Assembly (NCBI RefSeq): GCF_000820025.1
Contig: NZ_CDBI01000025.1
Span: 1-64,000, forward strand
Origin: Aeromonas popoffii
Lineage (GTDB): Bacteria > Pseudomonadota > Gammaproteobacteria > Enterobacterales > Aeromonadaceae
Direction: 5' to 3'
Length of the DNA stretch: 64,000 nt
Positions within the stretch are counted from its first letter, which is position 1; each line of letters opens with the position of its first letter. Of the stretch, positions 4,263 to 39,295 are shown one piece after another. The notes under the pieces are model-generated. The model ran no database searches, was not told the origin of the DNA, and saw only the letters and a list, made by a program, of their open reading frames with translations. A program made the translations under genes and the position numbers.

Positions 4263-5051
4263 CTAACCGGCGGCCTGCTGCTCTGCCAACCAGGACACCA
4301 GCGTGAGCTTGACGCCATGTTGGGCCAGCACCTCGCGGGCGCTCTCCGGCAGTTGTCCATCCGTGATCACCTGATCGATCACTTCCCATCCCACCACGTT
4401 GAAAGTCCCCACCTTGCCATATTTGGACGAGTCGCAGATGAGTATGCGGGTAGCGGCCGCCTCCACCACGGCGCGCTTGACCGGCACCTTCTGTTCGCTG
4501 GGGGTGGAGATCCCCATGGCATCCCAGGAGGACGCCGACAAAAACGCCATATCAAGGTGCAGATTGCGCAGGAAATGGGCGGTCGCCTCACCGGCGCAGG
4601 ACTGATTCTCCCGAATGACCTGGCCCCCGGAGTGATAGAGGCGGCAACGACCATGCTCGATGAGGTAGGCACAGACCATAAAGTCGTTGGTCACTATCAT
4701 CAGATCTTCCCGCTGCGCCAGTTCGCGGGCCAGTTCGAGGGAGGTGGTGCCGGCATCCAGATAGATGGTGCTGCCCTGCGCCACCTGGGCGGCCGCGTTG
4801 CGTGCAATGGCCAGCTTGGCCTCCTGCATCAGGCTGCGCTTGGCGGCATGAGAGGGTTCGCTCTTGATTCGCTGGGAGAGACTCACTCCTCCCGAAACAG
4901 AGAGCACTCGCCCCTGCTCTTCCAGCTTCTGGATGTCGCGCCTGATGGTCATGTGGGAGACCTGTAGCCGCTCGGTCAGTTCGGTGATGCTGACGGCACC
5001 GCGCTCGGCCAACAGGTGCAGTATCTGTTGCTGTCTCTCTACGGGGATCAT
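4263..5051 (-). CDS. ygbI: DeoR-family regulator of acid-sugar operon (YgbI-like)
   Basis: About 262 residues. The N-terminal DeoR helix-turn-helix reads ERQQQILHLLAERGAVSITELTERLQVSHMTIRRDIQKLEEQG, with the family's recognition helix MTIRRDI. The C-terminal DeoRC sugar-phosphate-sensing domain shows the typical IYLDAGTTSLELA and ITDG motifs plus LICDSSKYGK. The frame opens at a TTG (5057), but the ATG at 5051 is the likelier start. It is transcribed divergently from ltnD-otnK-otnC-otnI-denD-permease, the arrangement of ygbI with ygbJKLMN in E. coli. It is therefore the probable local repressor, responding to a pathway phosphate ester (inference). Confidence 0.88.
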   Translation of the reverse strand: MIPVERQQQILHLLAERGAVSITELTERLQVSHMTIRRDIQKLEEQGRVLSVSGGVSLSQRIKSEPSHAAKRSLMQEAKLAIARNAAAQVAQGSTIYLDAGTTSLELARELAQREDLMIVTNDFMVCAYLIEHGRCRLYHSGGQVIRENQSCAGEATAHFLRNLHLDMAFLSASSWDAMGISTPSEQKVPVKRAVVEAAATRILICDSSKYGKVGTFNVVGWEVIDQVITDGQLPESAREVLAQHGVKLTLVSWLAEQQAAG

Positions 5052-5201
5052 GGGCAATCCGTAACGGTAAAACGGGTGTTCATGTTACCCCAGTGGAATG
5101 GGAAATTTTGATAAAAAATCCCCCCTCCGCTCACGCCTCACATAAATTCACACAAAAACGACATCCAAAGCCATCCAATTGGCTCCAGACATTCATAAAT
5201 A

Positions 5202-5234
5202 ACAAAAATTAACACATCGATAGTTAATATTTGT
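5202..5234. promoter_or_regulatory. Inverted repeat, candidate DeoR/YgbI operator
   Basis: ACAAAAATTAAC, a 9-bp spacer, then GTTAATATTTGT: the two arms are inverted complements at 11 of 12 positions, with centres 21 bp (two helical turns) apart. It lies in the AT-rich divergent intergenic region between the DeoR-type regulator and ltnD, about 75 bp before ltnD. The right arm runs into a TGTGA half-site (5232-5236). Assignment to the regulator is inference from position. Confidence 0.55.
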
Positions 5235-5306
5235 GATGTCAGCCTGATTTTTAACCACAACAACCCCTTACTATCGGCTCATCCGTTGTAATCGAGGAAT
5301 AGACAG

Positions 5307-6215
5307 ATGAGCAGACCCTACCACGTAGCCGTCATCGGCCTGGGCGCCATGGGAATGGGCGCCGCCCGCTCCTGCTTACGGGCCGGACTTGCCACCTATG
5401 GCATTGATCTCTCTGAAACCGCCCGGGAGCAGTTGCAAGCAGCCGGTGCGACCGCCGTCATGGCCGATGCCCGCCCCCAGGCAGAAGCACTGGATGCCGT
5501 CCTGCTGCTGGTGGTCAACGCCGCCCAAGTGCGCCAAATCCTGTTTGGCGAGAGCGGCCTGGCCGCCCACCTCAAGCCGGGCACAGGCGTCATGATCTCC
5601 TCCACCATAGCTGCTGATGAAGCCGCAGCGCTGGCACACGAGCTGGCCGAGCTGGAGCTGCTGATGCTGGACGCCCCCGTCTCCGGCGGTGCCATCAAGG
5701 CCGATGCGGGCGAGATGACGGTGATGGCCGCCGGCTCCGACGCCGCCTTTGCACGCCTGCAGCCGGTGCTCGACGCCGTGGCCGGCAAGGTCTACCGGGT
5801 CGGCAGCGAGCCGGGTCAGGGCAGCACGGTCAAGATCATCCATCAGCTGCTGGCCGGGGTGCATATCGCCGTGGCCGCCGAAGCCATGGCGCTGGCCAGC
5901 CGGGCAGGCATCTCCCTCGACCTCATGTATGACGTGGTGACCCATGCCGCAGGCAACTCCTGGATGTTCGAGAACCGCATGGCCCGAGTGCTGACCGGTG
6001 ACTACCAGGCCCGCTCCGCAGTCGACATTTTCGTCAAGGATCTCAATCTGGTGGCCGACACGGCGCGGATTCTGCACTTCCCGCTGCCGCTGGCAAGCAC
6101 GGCGCTCAACATGTTCCTCACCGCCAGCAACGCCGGTCACGGCAAGGAAGACGACAGCGCCGTCATCAAGATCTTCGACGGCATCAGCCTGCCGGGTATG
6201 GAGGGCACAGCATGA
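5307..6215 (+). CDS. ltnD: L-threonate 2-dehydrogenase (YgbJ/LtnD)
   Basis: A 302-residue beta-hydroxyacid dehydrogenase. The Rossmann motif GLGAMGMGAA is at residues ~9-18, the substrate loop is SGGAIKADAGEMTVM, and the catalytic Lys lies in GSTVKIIHQLLAG. The C-terminus VDIFVKDLNLVADTA followed by STALNMFLTASNAGHGKED is characteristic of the YgbJ branch. It oxidises L-threonate to 2-oxo-tetronate with NAD+. It is the first gene of the operon, with ribosome site GAGGAATAGACAG, and overlaps otnK by 4 bp (ATGA). Assignment rests on family similarity and on having all the downstream enzymes of the published pathway in order. Confidence 0.88.
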   Translation: MSRPYHVAVIGLGAMGMGAARSCLRAGLATYGIDLSETAREQLQAAGATAVMADARPQAEALDAVLLLVVNAAQVRQILFGESGLAAHLKPGTGVMISSTIAADEAAALAHELAELELLMLDAPVSGGAIKADAGEMTVMAAGSDAAFARLQPVLDAVAGKVYRVGSEPGQGSTVKIIHQLLAGVHIAVAAEAMALASRAGISLDLMYDVVTHAAGNSWMFENRMARVLTGDYQARSAVDIFVKDLNLVADTARILHFPLPLASTALNMFLTASNAGHGKEDDSAVIKIFDGISLPGMEGTA

Positions 6216-7462
6216 AACTTGGTGTCATCGCAGACGACTTCACCGGGGCCACCGACATCGCCGGTTTTCTGGTGGAAAACGGCCTCGCCACCATCCAGTT
6301 TTCCGGCATCCCGGCAGAGGCGGATCTGACGGGGGTTGACGCCGTGGTGATCAGCCTCAAGAGCCGCTCCTGCCCGACCAGCGAGGCGGTGCGCGACTCC
6401 CTAGCCGCCCTCGACTGGCTCAAAGCGCGCGGTTGCCCGCGCATTTACCAGAAGTACTGCTCCACCTTCGACAGCACGGCGGCGGGCAATATCGGCCCGG
6501 TGACCGACGCCCTGCTGACGGCGCTGGACAGCCAACTCACCCTGATCTGCCCGGCGCTGCCGGTCAACGGCCGCACCGTCTATCAGGGCAACCTGTTTGT
6601 TGGCACCCAGCCGCTCGCCGAGTCGGGTATGCGCCACCATCCCATCACCCCCATGACCGACAGCAACCTGCTGCGGCTGATGGAGGCTCAGGCCGGGGGG
6701 CGCGCAGGTCTGGTCCCGTTCACCACCATCAGTCAGGGACCCGGCGCCATTGCCGACGCCTTTGAGCAGCTGGCAGCCGACGGGGTGCGCTACATCGTGG
6801 TCGACACCCTCACCGAGCAGCACCTGTTGGACATCGCCGCCTCTGCCCTCGACATGCCACTGGTGACCGGCGGCTCCGGGCTCGCCATCGGCCTGGCCCG
6901 CCTGCTCGGCGACGGTAATCGGGCTGCCGCCCGCGAGGCTGGAAGGCCGCTTTGCAACCGCGCCGTGGTGTTGTCGGGATCCTGCTCCGAGATGACCAAT
7001 CGCCAGGTGGCCTGCTACCAGACCATGGCACCGTCCCTGGCTCTCGATGTGGCGGCATGCCTGACACAGGCCGATTACCCGGCCGAGCTGGCCCGCTGGG
7101 TATTGAGTCAGCCGGCAACGCCGGCCCCCATGATCCACGCCACCACCAGCCCGAACGAGCTGGCCGCCATTCAGGCCCGTTTTGGCCGCGAAGCGGCGAG
7201 CGAGGCGGTGGAGCTGTGTTTTGCGCAAATTGCCGTGCAGCTGCGCGAGGCGGGGGTGGAGAGCTTCATCATCGCCGGCGGTGAAACCTCCAGCCGCATC
7301 ACCCAGGCTCTGGGTATCGCCGCCTTCCACATCGGTCCTCAAATCGCCCCCGGCGTCCCCTGGGTGCGAGCCACCGATGCCCCTCTGTCACTGGCCCTCA
7401 AATCGGGCAATTTTGGTGACGAAACCTTCTTCAGCCGGGCACAGGAGTTCTTCCATGACTGA
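6212..7462 (+). CDS. otnK: 3-oxo-tetronate 4-kinase (DUF1537 family)
   Basis: 416 residues with the DUF1537 N-domain signature DDFTGATDIAGFLVENG, LPVNGRTVYQGNLF and the C-domain motifs VLSGSCSEMTNRQV and IIAGGETSSRI. This is the OtnK/YgbK acid-sugar kinase, phosphorylating 3-oxo-tetronate with ATP before decarboxylation. It is translationally coupled to ltnD by a 4-bp overlap and overlaps otnC by 8 bp. Confidence 0.92.
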   Translation: MKLGVIADDFTGATDIAGFLVENGLATIQFSGIPAEADLTGVDAVVISLKSRSCPTSEAVRDSLAALDWLKARGCPRIYQKYCSTFDSTAAGNIGPVTDALLTALDSQLTLICPALPVNGRTVYQGNLFVGTQPLAESGMRHHPITPMTDSNLLRLMEAQAGGRAGLVPFTTISQGPGAIADAFEQLAADGVRYIVVDTLTEQHLLDIAASALDMPLVTGGSGLAIGLARLLGDGNRAAAREAGRPLCNRAVVLSGSCSEMTNRQVACYQTMAPSLALDVAACLTQADYPAELARWVLSQPATPAPMIHATTSPNELAAIQARFGREAASEAVELCFAQIAVQLREAGVESFIIAGGETSSRITQALGIAAFHIGPQIAPGVPWVRATDAPLSLALKSGNFGDETFFSRAQEFFHD

Positions 7463-26739: not shown

Positions 26740-27009
26740 TCTGTGCTTGCCTCCCCGCTATCCCCACGCTTCGTTATACGCCACGTCACAGCGATCTCAT
26801 TTCGCCAGAGCCCCCGTCGGCTGCCTCCATATTCCAGCTTTATCAGTAGTCCCCGCTGAATTGGGGCGACTTGCAACCAAGTTATTTTTTTGCGCTAACC
26901 TTATTGAGCCATTTGTAATTAATGGGTTCGGGCGTGGTTCATCCTCTCTGACACCAGTGGGATAACAGCTTGCTCCCGCCTCGACTCACGTGCAGGGATG
27001 AGTTTGCGT

Positions 27010-28227
27010 ATGACAGATCACAAGACGGCAGAGACAATTGCATTCTGGGACCCCGTGAGTTGGGCATGCTGCCTAGGCATAGGCCTGCTCAGCATCCTGC
27101 TGCTAGTTCTCGCTGGCAGCCCTCTGTCTTATCTGCTGGCCAACGGCGTGCTGGCCCTGGGCGCAGCCCTCTGGTGCTCCCATCACTATCACAACAAGCC
27201 GGAGGCAAGCCATCACGACGAGGAGGCTGCCCATACCTGGTCTGCCGCCCAGCTCAGCCATTCCATTATTGGGCTCGAGCAAGTGTGCGAGAAAGCGGTC
27301 CCCATCTGGTCACAGCAAATTGAGAGCTCTCGTCAGCAGACCGAAGGGGCCATGATCGATCTGACCCAGCGCTTCTCCGGGCTCACCACCAAGCTGGAAG
27401 AGGCGGTAGCCGCCTCTCACAATGCCGCCGGAAATCTGGGCGGGACAAAATCGGCGGGCATGGCCGCCGTACTGGCCGAGAGCCAGGCTCAGCTCAACCA
27501 GGTGCTCGCCATCATGCATTCCGCGCAAGCCAATCGCGATGCCATGCTGGCGGAAATCAAGACGCTTACCGCCTACACCATAGAGCTCAATACCATGGCG
27601 CTCGATGTGGCCAAAATTGCTTCCCAGACCAACTTGCTGGCGCTCAATGCTGCAATAGAGGCGGCTCGGGCTGGCGAGGCCGGTCGCGGCTTCGCCGTGG
27701 TGGCCGATGAAGTGCGCACCCTGTCGCGCCTCTCCAGCGAAACGGCCAAGAAGATGACGGACAAGGTCGACACCATCAATAGCGGCATTGGCCGAGCCTT
27801 CCAGATAGCAGAAAGCGCAGCCGCGCGGGATCAAGCAGCCGTCAGTGACTCGGAGCACGCTATCGAGCAGGTGCTGGAGCGCTTTCGCATGGCCACTACC
27901 AGCCTGGCGGAGTCGGCAGCCCTGCTGCAGAGCGAAAGCTCGGGGATCCACCGCGAGATCTCCGATGTCATCGTTTCGCTACAGTTCCAGGATAGGGTCA
28001 GTCAAATCCTCAACCATGTACGCCAGAACATGGACAGCCTCAATGACCATCTGATTTCCTCACGTAATAGAACACACCAGTCAGGCCCCATCCAGATAGA
28101 TGCGGAGAGCTGGCTGGCAGACATGGAACTCTCCTACGCCACAGATGAACAACGCAACATTCATCATGGCCGCCGTCAGCAACCCATGGTGAATTCATCC
28201 CGCAGCGCAGACGTTACTTTTTTCTAG
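27010..28227 (+). CDS. Methyl-accepting protein with CheZ-like D-x3-Q motif
   Basis: About 405 residues. Two adjacent hydrophobic segments at the N-terminus ([37 protein letters not shown]) leave almost no periplasmic domain. The signalling hairpin [35 protein letters not shown] is intact, at ~residues 194-240. Near the end [14 protein letters not shown] places Asp328 and Gln332 in the D-x3-Q spacing of the CheZ phosphatase. First gene of the che cluster; cheY follows 9 bp later. The ATG at 26998 is possible but its AGGG abuts the codon, so 27010 is preferred. It ends ADVTFF, a degenerate form of the tail on the other two receptors. Confidence 0.85.
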
Positions 28228-28236
28228 GAGACAGAT

Positions 28237-28605
28237 ATGTCCAAAACAGTCCTGATCGTGGATGACTCGGCAACCATTCGCCAAGTCGTCGGCATGACGC
28301 TCAAGGGAGCCGGTTACGAGGTGATGGAAGCCTGCGATGGCAAGGATGCCCTCAGGAAACTCGACGGCAAGAAGATCAATCTCATCATCAGCGACGTCAA
28401 CATGCCGAACATGGATGGCATCAGCTTCGTCAAGGAGGCCAAGAAACTGGCAAGCTACAAGTTCACCCCCGTCATCATGCTGACCACCGAATCCCAGGAC
28501 AGCAAGAAGCAGGAGGGACAGGCTGCAGGAGCCAAAGCCTGGGTGGTCAAGCCATTTCAACCCGATCAGATGCTGGCGGCCGTCGCCAAGCTCATCATGC
28601 CCTGA
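28237..28605 (+). CDS. cheY: CheY-type response regulator
   Basis: 122 residues, a receiver domain only: acidic pair Asp9/Asp10 in IVDDSATIRQ, phospho-acceptor Asp53 in IISDVNMPNMDG, the conserved Thr in MLTTESQ and Lys in VVKPFQP. With the kinase CheA two genes downstream it forms the phosphorelay of this chemosensory cluster. No effector domain is attached, so its output is protein binding. Confidence 0.92.
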   Translation: MSKTVLIVDDSATIRQVVGMTLKGAGYEVMEACDGKDALRKLDGKKINLIISDVNMPNMDGISFVKEAKKLASYKFTPVIMLTTESQDSKKQEGQAAGAKAWVVKPFQPDQMLAAVAKLIMP

Positions 28606-28619
28606 GTCAGGAGCCACCA

Positions 28620-28946
28620 ATGCCGCTGCACATAGAGACAGGTGAACACAAGACGCTGGTCAAAGTCTCGGGGGATATGACCATCTATACAGCCGCCGAT
28701 CTCAAGCAGGCACTCACCCCCCTGCTTTACCGCCAGCAGGCGCTGGAGCTAGATCTGTCCCAAGTATCCGAGATGGATAGTGCCGGCTTGCAGCTGTTGC
28801 TGGCTGCCAAGAAAACGGCGCAACAGGGCGGTTATCCACTGCACCTGATCATGCACAGCCATGCGGTGCTCGACGCGCTGGAGCTGTGTCAACTGACAGC
28901 CTTCTTTGGCGATCCAACCCTCATGCCCCACGCTGATCACGCCTAG
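28620..28946 (+). CDS. STAS-domain protein of the chemosensory cluster
   Basis: 108 residues, an entire STAS (anti-sigma factor antagonist-like) fold: VKVSGDMTIYTAADLKQAL at the N-terminus and LDLSQVSEMDSAGLQLLLAA, with Ser54 at the phosphorylatable position. Placed between cheY and cheA, an arrangement known in some alternative che clusters. The kinase acting on Ser54, if any, is not in the window. Role in signalling is inference. Confidence 0.85.
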   Translation: MPLHIETGEHKTLVKVSGDMTIYTAADLKQALTPLLYRQQALELDLSQVSEMDSAGLQLLLAAKKTAQQGGYPLHLIMHSHAVLDALELCQLTAFFGDPTLMPHADHA

Positions 28947-28972: not shown

Positions 28973-31186
28973 GTGAGCATCAATCTTGATCAGGCCCTGC
29001 AAACCTACATCGCCGAGGCACGCGAACTGCTGGAAGAGATGGAGTCCGCCCTGCTGACGTTGGAAAACGACCCGAACAACAGCGAGCTGATCGGTGCTAT
29101 CTTTCGGGCGGCACATACCATCAAGGGATCCGCCGGCCTGTTTGGCTTGCAGCCCATCGTCAGTTTCACCCACATAGTTGAAGACTTGCTCGATCAGGTG
29201 CGCAATCAGCAACTGGCGATCACCACGACGCTTATCAAGGATCTGCTGGAGAGCCGGGATCATATCGAGCGGCTGGTCTATCTGGTCGCAGAGCAAGGCG
29301 CGTCCCTGGGGGGTGACGAACAGGCTATGGACTCTCAGTTGCGGCTAAATTTGGCACGCCATCAGGCGACCCGCCCGACCGGGTTGACGGACTGCACCCC
29401 ATCAGCAGGCGCTGAGCCGCTCAGCAAGGAAGAGGGTCATGTCAGCACCACCTCGTTGTGGCACATCTCCCTGCGCTTTGGCCCGGATGTGCTGCGCAAT
29501 GGCATGGATCCCACCTCGTTTCTGCGCTACCTCGGCACCATGGGCACCCTCTGCTCCATCGAAACCCTTCACGACGCCCTTCCCGACTGGGAACATTTCG
29601 ATCCCGAGAACTGCTACCTCGGTTATGAACTCGATGTCGACACCCAGGCCGACAAGGGAGCCCTGAGCGACGTGTTCGAATTCGTACGCGATGACTGCCG
29701 CATCACCATACTGCCCCCTCACAGCAAAATTGCCGAGTACATAGCGCTCATCAATGACCTGCCAGAAGACAACGATATGCTGGGACAATTGTTGGTCAAA
29801 ACGGGAGCACTAACCGCCAGCGAGCTAGCGCTCGGCCTGCAAACCCAGCATGACAACCCGCAGACAGACAGCAGCAAGCTGGGGGAGATCCTGATTGCAC
29901 AGGGCGCAGTCAACGAAGTGGTCGTAGAGGCCGCGCTCAAGAAACAACACCAGAACAAGGAGAATAAAACCAAAGAGGGGCGCTACGTCCGAGTACATGC
30001 CGACAAGCTGGATGATCTGATCAACCTGGTTGGCGAGCTGGTGGTCGCCAGCTCGGGCGCCAGTCTGTTAGCCCAACGCTCACGGGACAGCCAGTTGCAG
30101 GAGGCCAACTCCACCATCGCCATGCTGGTCGAGGAGATCCGGGATGGCGCCCTGCGCCTGCGCATGGTACCCATTGGGGACACCTTCAACCGCTTCCAGC
30201 GCGTCGTGCGCGACGTAAGCCAAGAGCTGAACAAGAACATTGCGCTAGTCATCACAGGCGGTGACACCGAACTCGACAAATCCGTGGTGGAAAAGATAGG
30301 TGATCCCCTGATGCATCTGGTTCGCAATTCCATGGATCACGGCATCGAATCGGCGGGGCAGCGCCTCGCCGCCGGCAAACCGGCGAGGGGCACTTTGACC
30401 CTCAATGCCTATCACGACTCCGGCAGCATCGTCATCGAGATCAAGGACGATGGCGCCGGACTCAACAAAGCAAGAATTCTGCAAAAGGCGCAAGAACGGG
30501 GCCTGGTCGCCGCCAATGCGGCCTTGACAGATCAGGAGATCTACCTGCTCATCTTCGAGCCCGGTTTTTCCACCGCAGAGACAATCACCAACCTCTCGGG
30601 TCGAGGGGTTGGCATGGACGTGGTCAAACGCAACATCACGGCCCTGCGCGGCAGCGTCGAGCTGGACAGCAAGCCAGGACAGGGCACCCGAGTGCAGATC
30701 AGGTTGCCATTGACCCTGGCCATCATCGACGGCTTTTTGGTCAGGGTTAGCACCACACATTACGTCATACCCCTCGACATGGTAATCGAGTGCGTTGAGC
30801 TGACCCAGAGTGCGCTGGCCGATACTCAGGGACGCAACTACCTCAACCTGCGCGGCGAGGTGCTGCCATTCGTACGACTCCAACAATACTTCGATATCGA
30901 AGGTGCGAGAGGGCGCAGGGAAAACATAGTGGTCGTCAGTCACGGCGGCAAAAAATCCGGGCTGGTAGTCGATGAACTGCTGGGGGAGTTTCAGATCGTG
31001 ATCAAGCCGCTCGGCAAGCTGTTTCAACGCCTGCAAGGGATCAGCGGATCCACCATTCTGGGCGGTGGCGAGGTTGCCCTGATCCTGGATATTCCCTCCC
31101 TCATTCAACATGCCATCGATCAGGAACTGAGCCAGCTGAGCCAGTACGCCCTTCCTCGCCAGCAAACTCAACCAAGAGTCAATTAA
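28973..31186 (+). CDS. cheA: Chemotaxis histidine kinase CheA
   Basis: 737 residues, GTG start with AAGGAG. P1 HPt domain with His48 in IFRAAHTIKGSAGLFG. Then a ~150-residue region with two repeats of an unusual alpha-beta segment (residues ~155-255) and a glutamate/glutamine-rich linker. P3 dimer helix YVRVHADKLDDLINLVGELVVA, P4 kinase with N-box LMHLVRNSMDHGIE, DDGAGLN and GRGVGMDVV, and the P5 CheW-like domain with YVIPLDMVIECVEL at the end. It phosphorylates CheY and CheB of this cluster. The domain order is standard; the P2 region is not the E. coli type. Confidence 0.94.
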   Translation: MSINLDQALQTYIAEARELLEEMESALLTLENDPNNSELIGAIFRAAHTIKGSAGLFGLQPIVSFTHIVEDLLDQVRNQQLAITTTLIKDLLESRDHIERLVYLVAEQGASLGGDEQAMDSQLRLNLARHQATRPTGLTDCTPSAGAEPLSKEEGHVSTTSLWHISLRFGPDVLRNGMDPTSFLRYLGTMGTLCSIETLHDALPDWEHFDPENCYLGYELDVDTQADKGALSDVFEFVRDDCRITILPPHSKIAEYIALINDLPEDNDMLGQLLVKTGALTASELALGLQTQHDNPQTDSSKLGEILIAQGAVNEVVVEAALKKQHQNKENKTKEGRYVRVHADKLDDLINLVGELVVASSGASLLAQRSRDSQLQEANSTIAMLVEEIRDGALRLRMVPIGDTFNRFQRVVRDVSQELNKNIALVITGGDTELDKSVVEKIGDPLMHLVRNSMDHGIESAGQRLAAGKPARGTLTLNAYHDSGSIVIEIKDDGAGLNKARILQKAQERGLVAANAALTDQEIYLLIFEPGFSTAETITNLSGRGVGMDVVKRNITALRGSVELDSKPGQGTRVQIRLPLTLAIIDGFLVRVSTTHYVIPLDMVIECVELTQSALADTQGRNYLNLRGEVLPFVRLQQYFDIEGARGRRENIVVVSHGGKKSGLVVDELLGEFQIVIKPLGKLFQRLQGISGSTILGGGEVALILDIPSLIQHAIDQELSQLSQYALPRQQTQPRVN

Positions 31187-31201: not shown

Positions 31202-33124
31202 ATGTTCAGAAACTCCACCATTAAAATGCGACTCACCATCCTGCTCTGCCTACTATGCCTGCTGCTACTAGGCGTTGGCGGGCTAGGACTCTACAACATG
31301 CAGAGCAGCAACCAGGGCCTGCAACGGGTTTATAACGACCGTGTGGTGCCGCTCAAACAGCTGAAAACCATCTCAGACAACTACGCCGTCGCCGTCATCG
31401 ACAACGTCAACAAGGCCAATGTGGGCCTCATCAGCGCCGAAGAGGCATTGCAACAGGTCCAGCGGGCCCAGCAGCAGATCAAGCAAGAGTGGCAGCATTA
31501 TCAGTCCACCAAGCTGACCGCAGCCGAGCAGAAACTATCGGCTGAGGCGGGCACCCTGTTCAACGCGGCGGATCGCGATATCACCAAACTGGAGCAGTTT
31601 CTAGCGACCCAGCACGGAGTCATCGCCGGCACCCTCAATGATTTTGACGGCAAGCTTTACAGCTCTATCGATCCCATCGGCAACAAGATAACTGAGCTGG
31701 TCACTCTGCAACTCGATGTGGCCAAAGCCGAATATGAGCAGGCTCAATCCTGGTACGACGCCATGCTGCTCACCATGATGGTAGTGGTCACGGCGGGGAT
31801 AGTGGCGGCGGCCTGGCTTGGTATAGTGCTCATCCGCAGCATCATTGCCCCCATCAATCAGGCGCTGCAGGTGGCCAACCATCTGGCGGAGGGGAACCTC
31901 GACGTCACCATCACCATAGGAGCCAACGATGAAGCGGGTCAACTCTTGATGGCCATGCAGAATATGGTCAACAAGCTGACAGCACTCATCAACGACATAG
32001 AAACCCTGGTCACCGCCGCCGTCGATCAAGGGGATTTCAGCTACAAGATAGCGCTGGACAATCGGCAGGGTTATACCAAACGCTTGTCCGAGCAGCTGAA
32101 CCGCTTGTCCAACGTCACAGATACCAGCCTCAAGGATGTCATGCGCATCGCCACCGCCCTGTCGCGGGGGGATCTCACCCAAAAGATAGATCAGCCCTAC
32201 CCGGGGATTTTTGGTCAGACCAAAGATGGTCTCAACAGCACCATAGACGCCTTGACAGCCATCATTGAAGAGGTACGCAACGCCGCTGACAACCTCACCA
32301 ATGCCTCCAGCCAAGTCAGCACCACGGCCCAGTCCCTGAGTCAGGCCACCAGTGAACAGGCAGCGAGCGTGGAAGAAACCAGCGCCTCCATCGAGCAGAT
32401 GAGTGCCAGCATCAACCAGAACACCGACAACGCCAAGGTGACCGACAACATGGCGAGCAGCGCCGTCCTCGAAGCGACCGAAGGGGGTCACTCGGTACAG
32501 CAAACCGTGGCGGCGATGCAACAGATAGCCCGCAAAGTCAGCATTATCGATGACATCGCCTACCAGACCAACCTGCTGGCGCTCAATGCCGCCATAGAGG
32601 CGGCCCGCGCCGGTGAACATGGCAAGGGCTTTGCGGTAGTGGCCGCCGAGGTACGCAAATTGGCTGAGCGCAGCCAGATTGCGGCGCAGGAGATAGGGGA
32701 ACTATCCTCCAGCAGCGTCGATACCGCAGAGAAAGCGGGCAGTCTGCTCGACAAGATAGTGCCTTCCATTCGCAAGACATCCGACCTGGTCCAGGAGATC
32801 AATGCTGCGTCCGGCGAGCAGGCCAGCGCGGCTAACCAGATCAGCATGGCCATGAACCAGCTCAATCAGGTGACCCAGCAGAACGCGGCCAGCAGCGAGG
32901 AACTGGCCGCCACCGCCGAGGAGATGAGCTCCCAGGCCAACGAGCTGCAGCAGACCATGGACTTCTTCTCGCTGGATAACCTGGTCAGGCCCTCAAAACT
33001 CAGCGAGGGTACGCACAGGGGAGCGTCCCCCAGAGGCACGTTTGTCATGCCCGCCCACCACCCGCTGCACGGCAACACGGTACCTCAACCCCAGGTTGAT
33101 GAAGCCGATTTTGTCCGCTTTTAA
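31202..33124 (+). CDS. Transmembrane methyl-accepting chemotaxis protein
   Basis: 640 residues. N-terminal TM1 ([20 protein letters not shown]), a ~150-residue four-helix-bundle (4HB_MCP) periplasmic domain with a Lys/Asp/Glu-rich helical sequence, TM2 ([20 protein letters not shown]), HAMP ([20 protein letters not shown]), then a methylation-helix region and the hairpin [43 protein letters not shown]. The C-terminus ends DEADFVRF after a ~50-residue unstructured linker. The ligand is unknown. It is the second receptor in the cluster. Confidence 0.92.
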
Positions 33125-33136
33125 CCGGAGAGACTC

Positions 33137-33709
33137 ATGAGCATGTCAACCGAAGTGGTCCCACAGCCAGTCACACTGGCTCATGACAATCAGGGCGATG
33201 CCCAGTATCTGACCTTCCTGATCAAGGGTGAGATGTTTGCCATCAACATTCTCGGGGTCAAAGAAATCATCGAATACGGCAACATCACTCCCATCCCCAT
33301 GATGCCCAGCTTCATCCGCGGCGTGATCAACCTCAGGGGGGCAGTGGTCTCGGTGGTGGACCTCAACGCTCGCTTTGGCAATGCCCCCTCCAGCATCACC
33401 CGCCGTAGTTGCATCGTCATCATCGAAGGGATGCACCCGGATGATCCCGAGCACGGCAATCAGGACATTGGGGTCGTGGTGGATTCGGTCTCGGAAGTAC
33501 TGACCATTCCCTGCAACGAGATAGAGCCACCGCCCAGTTTTGGCGCCCGCATCCGGGCCGATTTCATCAGCGGTATGGGCAAGGTGAATGGCAAGTTCGT
33601 CATCCTCATCAATACCGAGAAGGTGCTCTCCATCGACGAGATGACACAACTAAGTGAACTGACCCAGCAGCAGGAACGGCTGCTGGAACAAAAACAGCCA
33701 ACGCCATAA
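33137..33709 (+). CDS. cheW: Chemotaxis coupling protein CheW
   Basis: 190 residues, a single CheW SH3-pair domain: YLTFLIKGEMFAINILGVKEIIEY, the signature IPMMPSFIRGVINLRGAVVSVVDLNARFG and FISGMGKVNGKFVILINTEKVLS. Longer than E. coli CheW (167) by a C-terminal glutamine-rich helix. It links the cluster's CheA to its receptors. Confidence 0.94.
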   Translation: MSMSTEVVPQPVTLAHDNQGDAQYLTFLIKGEMFAINILGVKEIIEYGNITPIPMMPSFIRGVINLRGAVVSVVDLNARFGNAPSSITRRSCIVIIEGMHPDDPEHGNQDIGVVVDSVSEVLTIPCNEIEPPPSFGARIRADFISGMGKVNGKFVILINTEKVLSIDEMTQLSELTQQQERLLEQKQPTP

Positions 33710-33781
33710 CCCAAACATCAACAACAACGAGAGTGTCGCTCACACCACACAGCAATGACATGTCGCACAAGGATCAGGCCC

Positions 33782-35953
33782 ATGACTCAATCATTCTTTG
33801 GCAATCTCTTCGGCAACGGTAGCGCTCATACCTTGCAACAAGCACAACTGACCCAGTTGATCGGGGCTACTCGCACTATTTCGCAGGGGATCGCGCAGGG
33901 TGAACCGCCGTTCCTGCTGGAACTGGGCACACTGGATGGCCCGCTGCGGGAACTCTGTCAGGAGTTCAACCAGGTAATCACGCTGCTGGGCCAGCGGCTC
34001 AACAGCGGGCTGGCGGCCATCAGCGCCAACCAGGCCCTGTATGACGAGAACCTGCGGGTGCGCAAGGCTCTGGATGGTGCCTCGACCAATGTGATGATCG
34101 CCGATACCAACCTCGACATCGTCTACATGAATGAAGCCGTGCTCGCCATGCTGGGGCAGGCGGAGTCCGACATCCGCAAGGATCTGCCCAACTTCGATAC
34201 CAGACAGCTGATGGGCAAGAACATAGACACCTTTCACAAGGATCCGTCCCACCAGCGCAGCATGCTGGCCAAGCTGGACAAGACCTACCGCACGCAGATC
34301 TCGGTCGGTGGCCGCATCTTCTCCCTGATCGCCAACCCTGTCTTCAACGATAGCGGAGAGCGGCTCGGTTCAGTGGTGGAGTGGGCAGATCGCACCAAGG
34401 AGATCGCCATCGAAAATGAGGTGAAAGCGGCCAACGCGGCGGCCAAACTCGCCGCCGCCGAAAGCCTGCGAGTCAAAAGAGCGCTGGATGGCGCCAGTAC
34501 CAACGTGATGATTGCCGACACAGATTTGAACATCATCTACATGAACGAATCGGTCAAGGAGATGCTTAGCCTGGCCGAGTCCGACATCAAGAAGGATCTC
34601 TTCAGCTTCAATTCGTCCACCCTGATGGGGGCCAACATCGACAGTTTTCACAAGAATCCCGGCCATCAGCGCGGCATGCTGGCCAAGCTGAGCAATACCT
34701 ACAAGACCCAGATCCTGCTCGGTGGCCGCACCTTCTCGCTCATTGCCAACCCAGTGTTCAGCGATGATGGCGAGCGGCTGGGCTCCGTGGTCGAGTGGTC
34801 TGATCGCACCAAGGAGGTCGCGATCGAGCGGGAGATGTCGGAGATCGTGCAGGCGGTGATCAACGGGGAGCTGCACAAACGCATGGATCTGGTGGGCAAG
34901 AGTGGTTTCTTCCAGACCCTGGGGGAAGGCATCAACCGCATCGCAGAGGTGATAGACACCAGTCTCAACGACGTGATCCGGGTGGTGCAATGCCTGGCTC
35001 GGGGAGATCTGACCCAAACGATCGTGGCCGACTACCCCGGGGTATTTGGCACTACCAAGGACTCCCTCAACCAAACCATCATCTCGCTGACCAACATAGT
35101 GACCGAGGTGCGGAGCGCGTCCGATAACCTCTCCAGTGCCTCGGAACAAGTCAGCGCCACCGCCCAATCTATCAGTCAGTCGAGCAGTGAGCAGGCATCC
35201 AGCATGGAGGAGACCAGCGCCTCCATCGAGCAGATGAGTGCCAGCATCAACCAGAACACAGACAACGCTCAGGTCACGGATGGCATGGCCAGCAAGGCGG
35301 CCAAGGAGGCCGTGGAAGGCGGTGAAGCAGTCAAGCTCACGGTCGATGCCATGAAACAGATCGCCAAACGAATCGGCATCATTGATGACATCGCCTACCA
35401 GACCAATCTATTGGCCCTCAACGCCGCCATCGAAGCCGCCCGTGCGGGGGATCACGGCAAGGGCTTTGCGGTGGTCGCCGCCGAGGTCCGCAAACTGGCG
35501 GAGCGCAGCCAGGTGGCGGCTCAGGAGATAGGCGAGCTGGCCTCCAGCAGCGTCGACATGGCGGAAAAAGCGGGCCGCCTGCTCGATCAGATGGTGCCCT
35601 CCATCAACAAGACTTCGGATCTGGTACAGGAGATCAGCGCGGCCTCCGCCGAACAATCCACCGGCGTTAGCCAGATCAATATCGCCATGAATCAGCTAAG
35701 CCAGGTGACCCAGCAGAATGCATCCTGCAGCGAGCAGCTGGCGGCCACAGCAGAGGAGATGAGCAGCCAGGCCGAGCAACTGCAACTGGCCATGGAGTTC
35801 TTTACCCTGGAGCAACACAAGGGCGGCACGGGTCACAAAACCACAACCCCCCGGGCTGCAACCCGAGGACGTTTCATCACCGACGGCAATGGACAAGATG
35901 GCTTCAATGGTTCCCCTCGCCCCCACAACGACGCTGATTTTGTTCGGTTCTAA
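33782..35953 (+). CDS. Soluble chemoreceptor with duplicated PAS domains
   Basis: 723 residues with no membrane segment. Two PAS domains, residues ~93-213 and ~231-351, share most of their residues (both contain [34 protein letters not shown]). A HAMP-like connector (residues ~360-430) precedes a methyl-accepting hairpin with [43 protein letters not shown]. The last residues are [11 protein letters not shown] domains would sense redox, oxygen or ligands in the cytoplasm; the cofactor is not evident. The ATG at 33782 is preferred to 33755 because AAGGA lies 12 bp upstream. Confidence 0.92.
34058..34837 (+). repeat. Tandem duplication of PAS-encoding segment
   Basis: Direct repeat with a 414-bp period, first copy from ~34058, second from ~34472, encoding the two PAS domains of the soluble receptor. 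Both copies retain CTGGATGG and GCCAA-rich stretches at the nucleotide level. The linker between them is alanine-rich. Confidence 0.8.
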
Positions 35954-36014: not shown

Positions 36015-36818
36015 GTGTATCAGACCCAGTTGCATGATGATGAATTTACACAGTTTCAACGCTGGCTCCACCAAACGGCGGGCATCGATCTGTCACCGGC
36101 GAAGAAGGCGCTGGTCGCCAGCCGGCTGTCAAAACGGCTCTGTCACTACGAACTGGAGAGCTACGGCGACTATTTCAGCCTGATCATGAATAACCGGGGG
36201 GCAGAGCTGCAAATCGCACTGGACCTGCTCACCACCAACGAGACCTACTTTTTCCGGGAACCAAAGCACTTCGAGTTTCTCAGCGAGAAGGTGCTGGCAC
36301 TGCTGCCAAAAGAGCGGGCGGTGCGCATCTGGAGCGCGGCCAGCTCATCCGGCGAAGAGCCTTACAGTCTGGCCATGACGCTGGCTGACACCTTGAGCCA
36401 GGGCAATTGGGAGGTGATAGCTTCGGATATTTCGACCCGGGTGCTGGAGCAGGCCAGATCGGGGCAATATCCCATCGAGCGGGCCCATAATATTCCGCTC
36501 TCCTTCCTGATGAAGTACTGCCTGAAGGGCGTCGGCTTTCAGGAGGGTACCTTCATCATCGACCGCAAGCTCAGGGACAAGGTGCAATTTCATCACATCA
36601 ACCTGAATCAGGAGCTGCCTGACATCGGTATGTTCGACATCATTCTGATCCGCAATGTGATGATCTATTTCAATCGGGAAACCAAGGGGCAGGTGCTACA
36701 GCGCCTGGTACCACGCTTGAAGAAGGGAGGCTATCTCATCGTCAGCCATGCGGAGAGCCTGAACGGCCTGCCCCACGGTTTGCAACTGGTATCACCCTCC
36801 ATCTATCTGAAACCCTGA
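36015..36818 (+). CDS. cheR: Chemotaxis methyltransferase CheR
   Basis: 267 residues, GTG start with GGGAGTC upstream. N-terminal all-helical CheR domain, then the SAM-binding domain: TTNETYFFREPKHF, IWSAASSSGEEPYSLAMTL (motif I), SDIST and IILIRNVMIYFN. It methylates glutamates on the receptors with SAM, so adaptation is local to the cluster with CheD and CheB. Confidence 0.94.
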   Translation: MYQTQLHDDEFTQFQRWLHQTAGIDLSPAKKALVASRLSKRLCHYELESYGDYFSLIMNNRGAELQIALDLLTTNETYFFREPKHFEFLSEKVLALLPKERAVRIWSAASSSGEEPYSLAMTLADTLSQGNWEVIASDISTRVLEQARSGQYPIERAHNIPLSFLMKYCLKGVGFQEGTFIIDRKLRDKVQFHHINLNQELPDIGMFDIILIRNVMIYFNRETKGQVLQRLVPRLKKGGYLIVSHAESLNGLPHGLQLVSPSIYLKP

Positions 36819-36828
36819 GGGTTTCAAA

Positions 36829-37299
36829 ATGAAAGAGATAGTGCTGCAACCGGGAGAATTCTTTTTTGGTCAGGATAACACCATCATCCGCACCCATCTT
36901 GGCTCCTGCGTGGCCATTACCATGTGGCATCCGGAACAGAAACGGGGTGGCATGTGCCACTACATGCTGCCAAGCCGTGGTCACAACGATGACGTGCTGG
37001 ATGGCCGCTATGCAGATGAGGCAATCCAGTTGTTTATCAATGAAATAAGCAAGTACCCCGCCCCCATTCACGAATACGAGGTCAAGTTGTTCGGCGGCGG
37101 CAACATGTTTATCGAACAGCAGACACTCAACACCATGAATGTGGCAATTAAAAACATCAAGGCGGCCTGGCAACTGACTCAGCACCTGGGACTGTCGATC
37201 AAGGCCCACCATCTCGGACATGCAGGACACAGAAGCCTGATTTTTGAACTGACCAACGGCAATGTCTGGGTACGCCACCACCGGCTGCCTCATCGTTAA
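36829..37299 (+). CDS. cheD: Chemoreceptor glutamine deamidase CheD
   Basis: 156 residues. The catalytic pair is at the standard positions: Cys27 in THLGSCVAI and His44 in GGMCHYMLP, and the fold ends in VKLFGGGNMF. Deamidates glutamines to glutamates in receptors. E. coli has no CheD, so its presence marks a distinct class of chemosensory system. It lies 10 bp after cheR and 12 bp before cheB. Confidence 0.93.
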   Translation: MKEIVLQPGEFFFGQDNTIIRTHLGSCVAITMWHPEQKRGGMCHYMLPSRGHNDDVLDGRYADEAIQLFINEISKYPAPIHEYEVKLFGGGNMFIEQQTLNTMNVAIKNIKAAWQLTQHLGLSIKAHHLGHAGHRSLIFELTNGNVWVRHHRLPHR

Positions 37300-37311: not shown

Positions 37312-38373
37312 ATGAAACAGATCAAAGTCATGCTGGTGGATGACTCCGCCGTGGTCAGGCAGGTGTTGCAGGCCATTCTGGAACAGGAACCGGATATCAA
37401 GGTGATTGCCACCGCGTCTGACCCGCTGTTTGCACTGGAGAAGCTGAAAAAAGAGTGGCCCGACGTGATAGTGCTGGATGTGGAGATGCCGCGCATGGAT
37501 GGCATCACCTTCCTCACCAAGATAATGGCCGAGCACCCGACCCCTGTGGTGATCTGCTCTTCCCTGACCGAGAAGGGGGCGGAAACCACGCTGCAGGCCA
37601 TGGCTGCCGGCGCAGTGGACATCATCACCAAACCCACGGTCGGGCTCAAAAATTTTCTGCAGGAGTCGGCGCAAGCGCTGGCCATGGCAGTCCGTGCCGC
37701 CGCCCAGGCCAATGTCAAACGACTGGGCAAGGCGCCTTTGGCCACTGTCGCCGCCAAACTCAATGCCGACGCCATCATGCCCGCAGCCAGCCCGCATGCC
37801 ATGGCTCAGACCACGGAGCGGATCGTGGCAATCGGCACCTCTACCGGCGGCACCCAGGCACTGGAAGCCGTGCTGACGACTCTGCCTCGCGTTTGTCCCG
37901 GCATCGTCATAGTGCAACACATGCCGGAGAAATTCACCGCCTCCTTCGCCGAGCGACTCAACAACCTGTGCCAGATAGAAGTGCGGGAAGCAAAGAGCAA
38001 TGACAGGGTCATTCCGGGTCTTGCGCTCATAGCGCCGGGGGGCAAGCACATGCTGCTCAAGCGCAGCGGGGCCTACTATCACGTCGATGTGATCGATGGC
38101 CCTCTCATCAACCGTCACCGCCCTTCGGTGGACGTGCTGTTTCGCTCTGTGGCCAAATTTGCCGGTGGCAATGCCACCGGCATCATCATGACGGGAATGG
38201 GGGATGATGGTGCACGCGGGCTAAGAGAAATGCTGGAGGCGGGCGCCAACACCTTCGCCCAGGATGAGACCTCCTGCGTGGTATTCGGCATGCCCAAGGA
38301 GGCCATCAAGCTCGGGGCTGTCCGCCACATACTGCCGCTGCAGGACATTCACCACGCAATAGTGGGCCGCTAG
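37312..38373 (+). CDS. cheB: Chemotaxis methylesterase/deamidase CheB
   Basis: 353 residues. A receiver domain (Asp56 in [12 protein letters not shown]), a linker with two Ala-rich helices, and the methylesterase domain with the catalytic Ser in [16 protein letters not shown], His in [18 protein letters not shown] and Asp in [15 protein letters not shown]. It is the last gene of the eleven-kilobase cluster and provides feedback demethylation. Confidence 0.94.
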
Positions 38374-38957: not shown

Positions 38958-39042
38958 GGAGGGGTTCCCGAGCGGCCAAAGGGATCAGACTGTAAATCTG
39001 ACGGCTCTGCCTTCGAAGGTTCGAATCCTTCTCCCTCCACCA
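38958..39042 (+). tRNA. tRNA-Tyr (GTA)
   Basis: 85 nt, class II with an extra arm. Acceptor GGAGGGG pairs with TCCCTCC, then A and encoded CCA. Anticodon GTA in GACTGTAAATC, T-loop GGTTCGAATCC. Closely resembles E. coli tRNA-Tyr. Confidence 0.97.
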
Positions 39043-39081
39043 TTCAAGTGCAAAAGTAGTGACAATCAGGAAATACCCCGT

Positions 39082-39166
39082 GGAGGGGTTCCCGAGCGGC
39101 CAAAGGGATCAGACTGTAAATCTGACGGCTCTGCCTTCGAAGGTTCGAATCCTTCTCCCTCCACCA
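39082..39166 (+). tRNA. tRNA-Tyr (GTA), second copy
   Basis: 85 nt, identical in sequence to the copy at 38958, with anticodon GTA and encoded CCA. The 39-bp spacer before it shares no obvious similarity with the next spacer, apart from a GTG just before the tRNA. Confidence 0.97.
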
Positions 39167-39210
39167 TTTTCCCGATTGAAATGGCTGAATAACCTATGCT
39201 TTACCCCTGT

Positions 39211-39295
39211 GGAGGGGTTCCCGAGCGGCCAAAGGGATCAGACTGTAAATCTGACGGCTCTGCCTTCGAAGGTTCGAATCCTTCTCCCTCCACCA
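39211..39295 (+). tRNA. tRNA-Tyr (GTA), third copy
   Basis: 85 nt, same sequence as the other two. The array of three is co-transcribed from the promoter at 38915 and closed by a terminator 12 bp after this copy. Confidence 0.97.

Follow-up and report, generated by a model that had tools for sequence, protein, structure and literature searches.

DFVRF tails of two chemoreceptors as predicted docking sites for the CheR methyltransferase of an F8-like chemosensory cluster in Aeromonas popoffii

Two receptors of a chemosensory cluster of Aeromonas popoffii share the C-terminal sequence ADFVRF, and we propose that its last five residues, DFVRF, form a docking pentapeptide for the CheR methyltransferase of the same cluster. 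The cluster lies in a stretch of 64,000 nucleotides of contig NZ_CDBI01000025.1 (the window), where its genes follow one another on the + strand in the order MCPa, cheY, a STAS protein gene, cheA, MCPb, cheW, MCPc, cheR, cheD and cheB, MCP standing for methyl-accepting chemotaxis protein. The translations bear out what an earlier note on this DNA had reported, namely that MCPb and MCPc share the ADFVRF end and that MCPa ends in ADVTFF. Judging from sequence comparisons, it is highly probable that DFVRF is the docking site of F8-like (34H) receptors for their own cluster's CheR. The features concerned are the following.

31202..33124, + strand: MCPb, 640 aa, with a 4HB/TarH sensor, HAMP, a 34H signalling domain and a 49-residue tail region ending in DEADFVRF
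33104..33124, + strand: ADFVRF and stop codon of MCPb, with the predicted CheR-docking pentapeptide DFVRF
33755..35953, + strand: MCPc, 732 aa, with PAS domains, HAMP, a signalling domain and a 47-residue tail region ending in HNDADFVRF
35933..35953, + strand: ADFVRF and stop codon of MCPc
36015..36818, + strand: cheR, of the long-beta-loop (pentapeptide-binding) type
36510..36563, + strand: CheR residues 166-183, a beta-subdomain segment equivalent to Salmonella 182-199 (K171 = R187, I181 = R197, D183 = R199)

In the proposed mechanism, each methylatable receptor bears the pentapeptide at the end of a linker of about 45 residues, and the peptide would join the beta-subdomain sheet of that cluster's CheR as an extra strand. 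The enzyme recruited in this manner would stay close to the methylation sites, and the tag might also help hold the adaptation enzymes to their own pathway. We propose this last role because the other receptors of the genome lack the tail, one of its CheRs, encoded on contig C55, lacks the loop, and a second loop-bearing CheR is paired with another tail, KFTNY.

MCPb is a 34H receptor, as it has a seven-residue gap in both arms relative to the serine receptor of E. coli (36H); MCPc was judged by eye to be 34H as well. With what we take to be the methylation-site pattern, four methylation-like sites are found in MCPb, four in MCPc and a single one in MCPa, which might therefore be in less need of a CheR tag. 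The 34H receptor and a gene order common to Pseudomonas loci, compared with the available part of the description in PMC11253619, suggest that the cluster is F8-like.

The tail is confined to the two cluster receptors

The genome is a 4.76-Mb draft of 105 contigs. An exact degenerate DNA pattern encoding ADFVRF and a stop codon matched it twice, in MCPb and MCPc, and the reversed pattern, used as a control, had no match in the genome. Pfam MCPsignal gave 30 rows, made up of 28 receptors above the cut-off, one below it and a second match within the frame of another receptor. Among the C-termini of the 28 receptors, two are DFVRF, one is KFTNY and 25 do not fit the pentapeptide signature xZxxZ (Z = F, W or Y). 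Each of the three xZxxZ receptors sits in a cluster whose CheR has a long loop. The survey of all receptor C-termini for which the earlier note had called places ADFVRF on the two cluster receptors and nowhere else.

The only CheD of the genome is that of the window, and its three CheRs are encoded in the window and on contigs C14 and C55. The C55 enzyme is presumably the CheR of the main flagellar pathway. The C14 enzyme belongs to a second cluster (L037, C14:72000-86000) with cheY, STAS, cheA, mcp, cheW, cheR and cheB, a gene order similar to that of the window; it has its own loop-type CheR, and its receptor (4603-6282) ends in KFTNY. Neither CheD nor an McpA-like gene, the family of MCPa, was found in the C14 cluster. 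The gene that follows it resembles one for a receiver-EAL protein.

Restriction to two cluster receptors, retention in relatives and a CheR with a pentapeptide-binding loop lend good support to the cluster-specific tether suggested earlier. The companion idea that the tail differs from NWETF and GWEEF does not hold, as DFVRF fits both xZxxZ (PMC7390727) and the 34H form xF/YxxF/Y (PMC2577667) as worded in the available text. We consequently regard it as a form of the known pentapeptide, and agreement with the xZxxZ rule rules out a tether of a new kind. A literature search on DFVRF and chemotaxis found no relevant report, its sole match concerning a nematode neuropeptide. The two linkers, described earlier as fully different, both contain an RGxF patch (ASPRGTFV in MCPb, ATRGRFIT in MCPc) that is present in relatives too.

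The cluster's CheR has the loop and fold of pentapeptide-binding enzymes

The window CheR aligns with Salmonella CheR without a gap over the loop (KGVGFQEG versus RGTGPHEG), whereas P. aeruginosa CheR1 and the C55 CheR have a short loop with no insertion. It scores 183 bits against the Salmonella enzyme and 147 against CheR1. In its AlphaFold model (mean pLDDT 92.4) the beta-subdomain contains three short strands, and the PDB entry that the model matches best is 1bc5, the CheR-NWETF complex (TM 0.91). At the contact positions Q182, R187, G188, G190, G194 and R197 given in the available part of PMC2577667, the window CheR has M, K, G, G, G and I, respectively; in the C14 CheR, R187 and R197 are retained and position 190 is D. 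G188 and G194 are kept in both enzymes, and their pockets differ at 189-193, 195-197 and 199.

The tail is conserved in relatives

We compared 61 genomes, the own genome and 60 relatives, of which 37 belong to the genus. A relative of the window CheR (at least 59% identity) occurs in 18 of these 37. The MCPb and MCPc counterparts in the genus clusters end in DFVRF or the near forms DFIRF, EFVRF and DFIHF, with GFVRFEH in L056; L052 and L056 have a single such receptor, and the L048 and L054 clusters are broken off by contig ends. Clusters of the C14 type, ten in nine of the 37 genomes, all have KF[ST]NY tails. Within the genus clusters compared, first-type receptors thus share the core F[VI][RH]F and second-type receptors the end KF[ST]NY.

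This sorting bears on insulation. It is quite possible, if the less probable case, that each loop-bearing CheR binds both tails, so that DFVRF and KFTNY do not insulate their pathways, which would affect the insulation step alone and is compatible with docking. Both tails fit xZxxZ, both CheRs keep G188 and G194, and, according to the available part of PMC7390727, the Salmonella complex owes most of its binding to the aromatic residues at positions 2 and 5. The separation of cores between same-genus clusters and the pocket differences listed above argue the other way.

The mean majority fraction over the last five residues is 0.92 in MCPb (15 of 15 rows) and 0.99 in MCPc (17 of 18, leaving out L056 with its GFVRFEH end), compared with only 0.37-0.66 over the 30 residues ahead of the tail in the same genus; as positions were taken from the end, unaligned, linker indels inflate this contrast. 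The Arg of the tail is encoded by four different codons among 27 DFVRF tails, therefore the protein, not the DNA, is conserved. Mere inheritance from a common ancestor of the two receptors, the tail being now functionless, is most improbable: MCPb and MCPc have homologous signalling domains, and the tail travels with the cluster, but such a relic would hardly be kept so much better than its linker while its codons drift synonymously.

Tail-CheR pairs across bacteria

A wider survey covered 177 loci: the window, the C14 cluster, 35 loci from relatives, 80 named loci and 60 further matches. It comprises 180 CheRs above 90 bits, 124 of them with an assigned xZxxZ receptor, in 96 groups at 80% identity. 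L049, L050 and L075 have one CheR sequence (L049 and L075 are seemingly one locus), and L103 and L171 are one locus with the same CheR; 177 of the 180 CheRs, 122 of the 124 pairs and 135 of the 138 loci with cheA, cheR and cheB are distinct. By tail, the pairs divide into 62 with F/Y and a basic position 4, 40 with W, five with F/Y and an acidic position 4, and 17 with other F/Y tails. Where an McpA-like gene, STAS and cheA occur together (64 CheRs), the tail is F/Y with a basic position 4 in 49 cases; another 13 lack a terminal xZxxZ, one has a W tail and one an F/Y tail of another kind. Among the named hosts are Pseudomonas, Duganella and Methyloversatilis. A further tail form, NFRPY, was seen in L108, L115, L117 and L125 (beta-proteobacteria, Burkholderiales and an unspecified proteobacterium).

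Tail position 4 and the CheR residue equivalent to Salmonella 199 seldom carry charges of the same sign. With a basic position 4 (44 groups), residue 199 is D/E in 26, K/R/H in two and another residue in 16; with an acidic one (33 groups), it is D/E in none, K/R/H in 19 and another residue in 14. Like-sign charges are thus found in 2/44 and 0/33 groups. When only F/Y tails are considered, mutual information ranks column 199 first of 257 for the charge of position 4. Applied to all pairs without that restriction, plain mutual information was confounded by clade, no beta-subdomain column coming out on top, and was rejected.

Several points weigh against the docking proposal. In a Pagel-type, phylogeny-aware test, the 4/199 pair ranks 2 and 4 of 233, and the top rank goes to basic 101, which lies outside the beta-subdomain, for which reason this charge pairing is suggestive only. 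The expected pairing of tail position 3 with CheR 197 stood out in the raw counts but was gone after the phylogenetic test (ranks 28 and 131 of 233) and was abandoned. The beta-loop is gapless in all 124 pairs, but partly by construction, as pentapeptide-type CheR queries were used to find the loci. Finally, the published consensus, in the available part of PMC7390727, prefers acidic residues outside positions 2 and 5, and DFVRF has V-R at positions 3-4.

In 12 of the 180 CheR loci (11 distinct: L056, L084, L085, L087, L091, L103, L161, L165, L166, L169, L171 and L201), an FxxF motif lies 1-5 residues inside the C-terminus, as in GFVRFQH, DFIKFDEAS and HFKKFA, by a pattern chosen after examples had been seen. 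No receptor with a terminal xZxxZ was found for the same CheR in these 12 loci, hence a free terminal carboxylate seems dispensable for docking.

As for the partner of the tail, which the earlier note had left between CheR, CheD and CheB, CheR is by far the likelier. CheD fares poorly, since no CheD was found in the loci of 7 of the 62 pairs with F/Y and a basic position 4, nor in any of ten KF[ST]NY clusters. It is very unlikely that the tail serves chiefly to tether CheB (or CheD) and binds CheR only secondarily. CheB of E. coli and CheB2 of P. aeruginosa do bind their pentapeptides (PMC8609364, PMC7698151, available parts), and the window CheB retains R128 and a hydrophobic residue at 135. 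However, over the site described in PMC8609364 it reads R128, Q132, N134, V135 and L138 where Salmonella CheB has R, R, R, I and H, which puts Q, N and L in place of R132, R134 and H138; the pocket as a whole gives a mixed picture. Published CheB affinities are also far weaker than those of CheR (PMC7698151), and F/Y tails occur in loci in which no CheD was found.

MCPa carries a second conserved tail

The remaining features of the cluster are as follows.

26998..28227, + strand: MCPa, McpA-like short receptor, 409 aa, ending in SADVTFF, not of the DFVRF type
27982..28005, + strand: QFQDRVSQ of MCPa, residues 329-336, with a CheZ-like DxxxQ
28207..28227, + strand: ADVTFF and stop codon of MCPa, a separate conserved tail
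28237..28605, + strand: cheY
28620..28946, + strand: gene for the STAS-domain protein
28973..31186, + strand: cheA
33137..33709, + strand: cheW
36829..37299, + strand: cheD
37312..38373, + strand: cheB

MCPa resembles the McpA-like receptors PA0180/CttP and VCA1088 in its N-terminal membrane-type helices, in its position adjoining a che cluster and in a conserved C-terminus whose pentapeptide position 2 is not aromatic (PMC7184735, PMC7534058, available parts); its end, DVTFF, fails xZxxZ. In these sources McpA-like receptors are said to occur only in F7 genomes, whereas MCPa belongs to an F8-like cluster. The McpA C-terminus is called conserved and important, and its role unclear, in the available text of PMC7184735.

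We collected 78 rows of MCPa homologues (76 distinct), leaving out a hit under 60 bits (L097, tail DDLTFF); P. aeruginosa McpA is not in the set. An [FLM]F end is present in 77 of the 78 and [IVL]x[FLM]F in 76. In the one exception, L042, the frame ends without the [FL]F tail and may be frame-shifted near its end. The idea that ADVTFF is a decayed DFVRF is ruled out by its conservation in its own right in the orthologues. Outside the hairpin tip, the near-invariant columns (one residue in 77 or 78 of 78) are Q329, F330, D332, Q336 and the final F. D332 and Q336, present in all 78, align with FQDLTGQ of CheZ. The longer pattern LQ[FV][QEG]DxxxQ is found in 73 homologues, the other five having DxxxQ too. 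It is absent from all 164 other receptors whose end is FxxF-like; L069, one of them, has a bare FQDxxxQ.

In CheZ, the AxxFQ-DxxxQ motif occurs together with a four-helix bundle, a linker and a C-terminal region that binds CheY (PMC7750401, available part). We tentatively suggest that McpA-like receptors might be array-borne CheY phosphatases of CheZ-less systems, with the FQDxxxQ site on the return helix and the [IVL]x[FL]F tail docking CheY in the manner of the C-terminal helix of CheZ. If so, the two receptor tails of the cluster would have two jobs, DFVRF serving the methyltransferase and ADVTFF serving CheY.

A CheZ model built from 25 of 27 CheZ loci, two having missed the motif pattern, gave 23.3 bits (E 6.6e-7) for the MCPa of L057, aligning FQDRTSQ to FQDLTGQ. 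Among 235 other receptors the top score was 9.7 bits, and the domain of the window MCPa, at only 7.5 bits, falls under that value. MCPa was not filed as a CheZ because it stays under the curated Pfam PF04344 cut-off of 30.7 (19.6 bits for its C-terminal part, 15.9 for the whole); the MCPa of L105 had no match to this Pfam family. In 31 genomes, Pfam CheZ retrieved, besides the true CheZs, two sub-cut-off frames of one genome (G041; 406 and 408 aa; E 7.2e-4), in places consistent with its MCPa genes. Against the phosphatase idea, it also weakly matched two other long frames, one of 611 aa (E 1.2e-4) and one of 553 aa (E 4.8e-4). As other long frames score alike, such E-values prove little, and our confidence went from even to slightly less than even. 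An hhalign comparison of MCPa with CheZ placed the FQD...Q motifs in the same register, but with a probability of 20% and E 0.0011 (0.9% for the control receptors) the match was weak as a whole. A structure model of MCPa (mean pLDDT 74.5, pTM 0.41) did not resolve the hairpin and was dropped.

The 138 loci with cheA, cheR and cheB comprise 74 with only an McpA-like gene, eight with only CheZ, one with both and 55 with neither; the totals predict 4.9 with both, but loci were cut at fixed distances, which makes absences soft. In the evolutionary scheme of PMC7184735, as far as its available text goes, cheZ is found at stages 1 and 2 in F6 clusters only, and McpA is lost at stage 3, when the F6 cheY/cheZ pair is thought to have been recruited. 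This replacement fits the hypothetical phosphatase role. A literature search on CheZ-like receptors and McpA found no description of DxxxQ in McpA-like receptors in the text available.

Downstream of the cluster, three consecutive tRNA-Tyr genes lie at 38958-39295, and the repeated GFPSGQRDQTVNLTALPSKVRILLPPP in the open reading frames there comes from translating these tRNA genes and is no protein.

Discussion

The DFVRF tails appear to bring an F8-like pathway of Aeromonas into the range of a known targeting device. The presence of DFVRF and KFTNY in one cell provides a natural test of the orthogonality of tails and CheRs, in which the charge pair between R4 of the tail and D183 of CheR is of particular interest. 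The internal motifs suggest that receptors whose motif is set back from the end by a few residues escape surveys that demand a strictly terminal xZxxZ. Of the leads obtained here, the ADVTFF tail is the most interesting: the MCPa results turn the printed puzzle of the McpA tail into a direct biochemical question. A phosphatase role, if true, would explain both the conserved McpA C-terminus and the loss of McpA-like genes at the stage at which F7 presumably takes over F6 cheY/cheZ.

The motif itself is already known, and the pairing of receptor and CheR is already reported for the F8 system of P. syringae pv. tomato in the available part of PMC11253619. There, the 34H receptor PSPTO_0912 has a pentapeptide and the CheR PSPTO_0910 a GXX insertion, and the same pairing of a 34H pentapeptide receptor with a long-loop CheR of one cluster is proposed. 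Aeromonas differs in having two receptors with one tail and, in some species, a second cluster with KF[ST]NY. The Pseudomonas loci L076, L077 and L084 have a gene order similar to that of the window and EFTRF/DFTRF tails. The 34H receptors of Geobacter have EFEKF tails and group B CheRs, tail type being correlated with CheR pocket type (PMC2577667, available part). As in Aeromonas, the tail is a class-specific xF/YxxF/Y, and the CheR pocket differences were proposed to underlie class-specific pairing; in contrast, position 3 of the Aeromonas tail is V, not acidic, and its CheR has I181 and D183 for Salmonella R197 and R199. Finally, McpB (Aer2) of P. aeruginosa, with its GWEEF tail, CheR2 and CheB2, exemplifies a tail dedicated to the CheR of one pathway in a multi-pathway cell (PMC7390727, PMC7698151, PMC7184735, available parts), although it is a 36H receptor with W at position 2 and acidic residues at positions 3-4, unlike those of Aeromonas.

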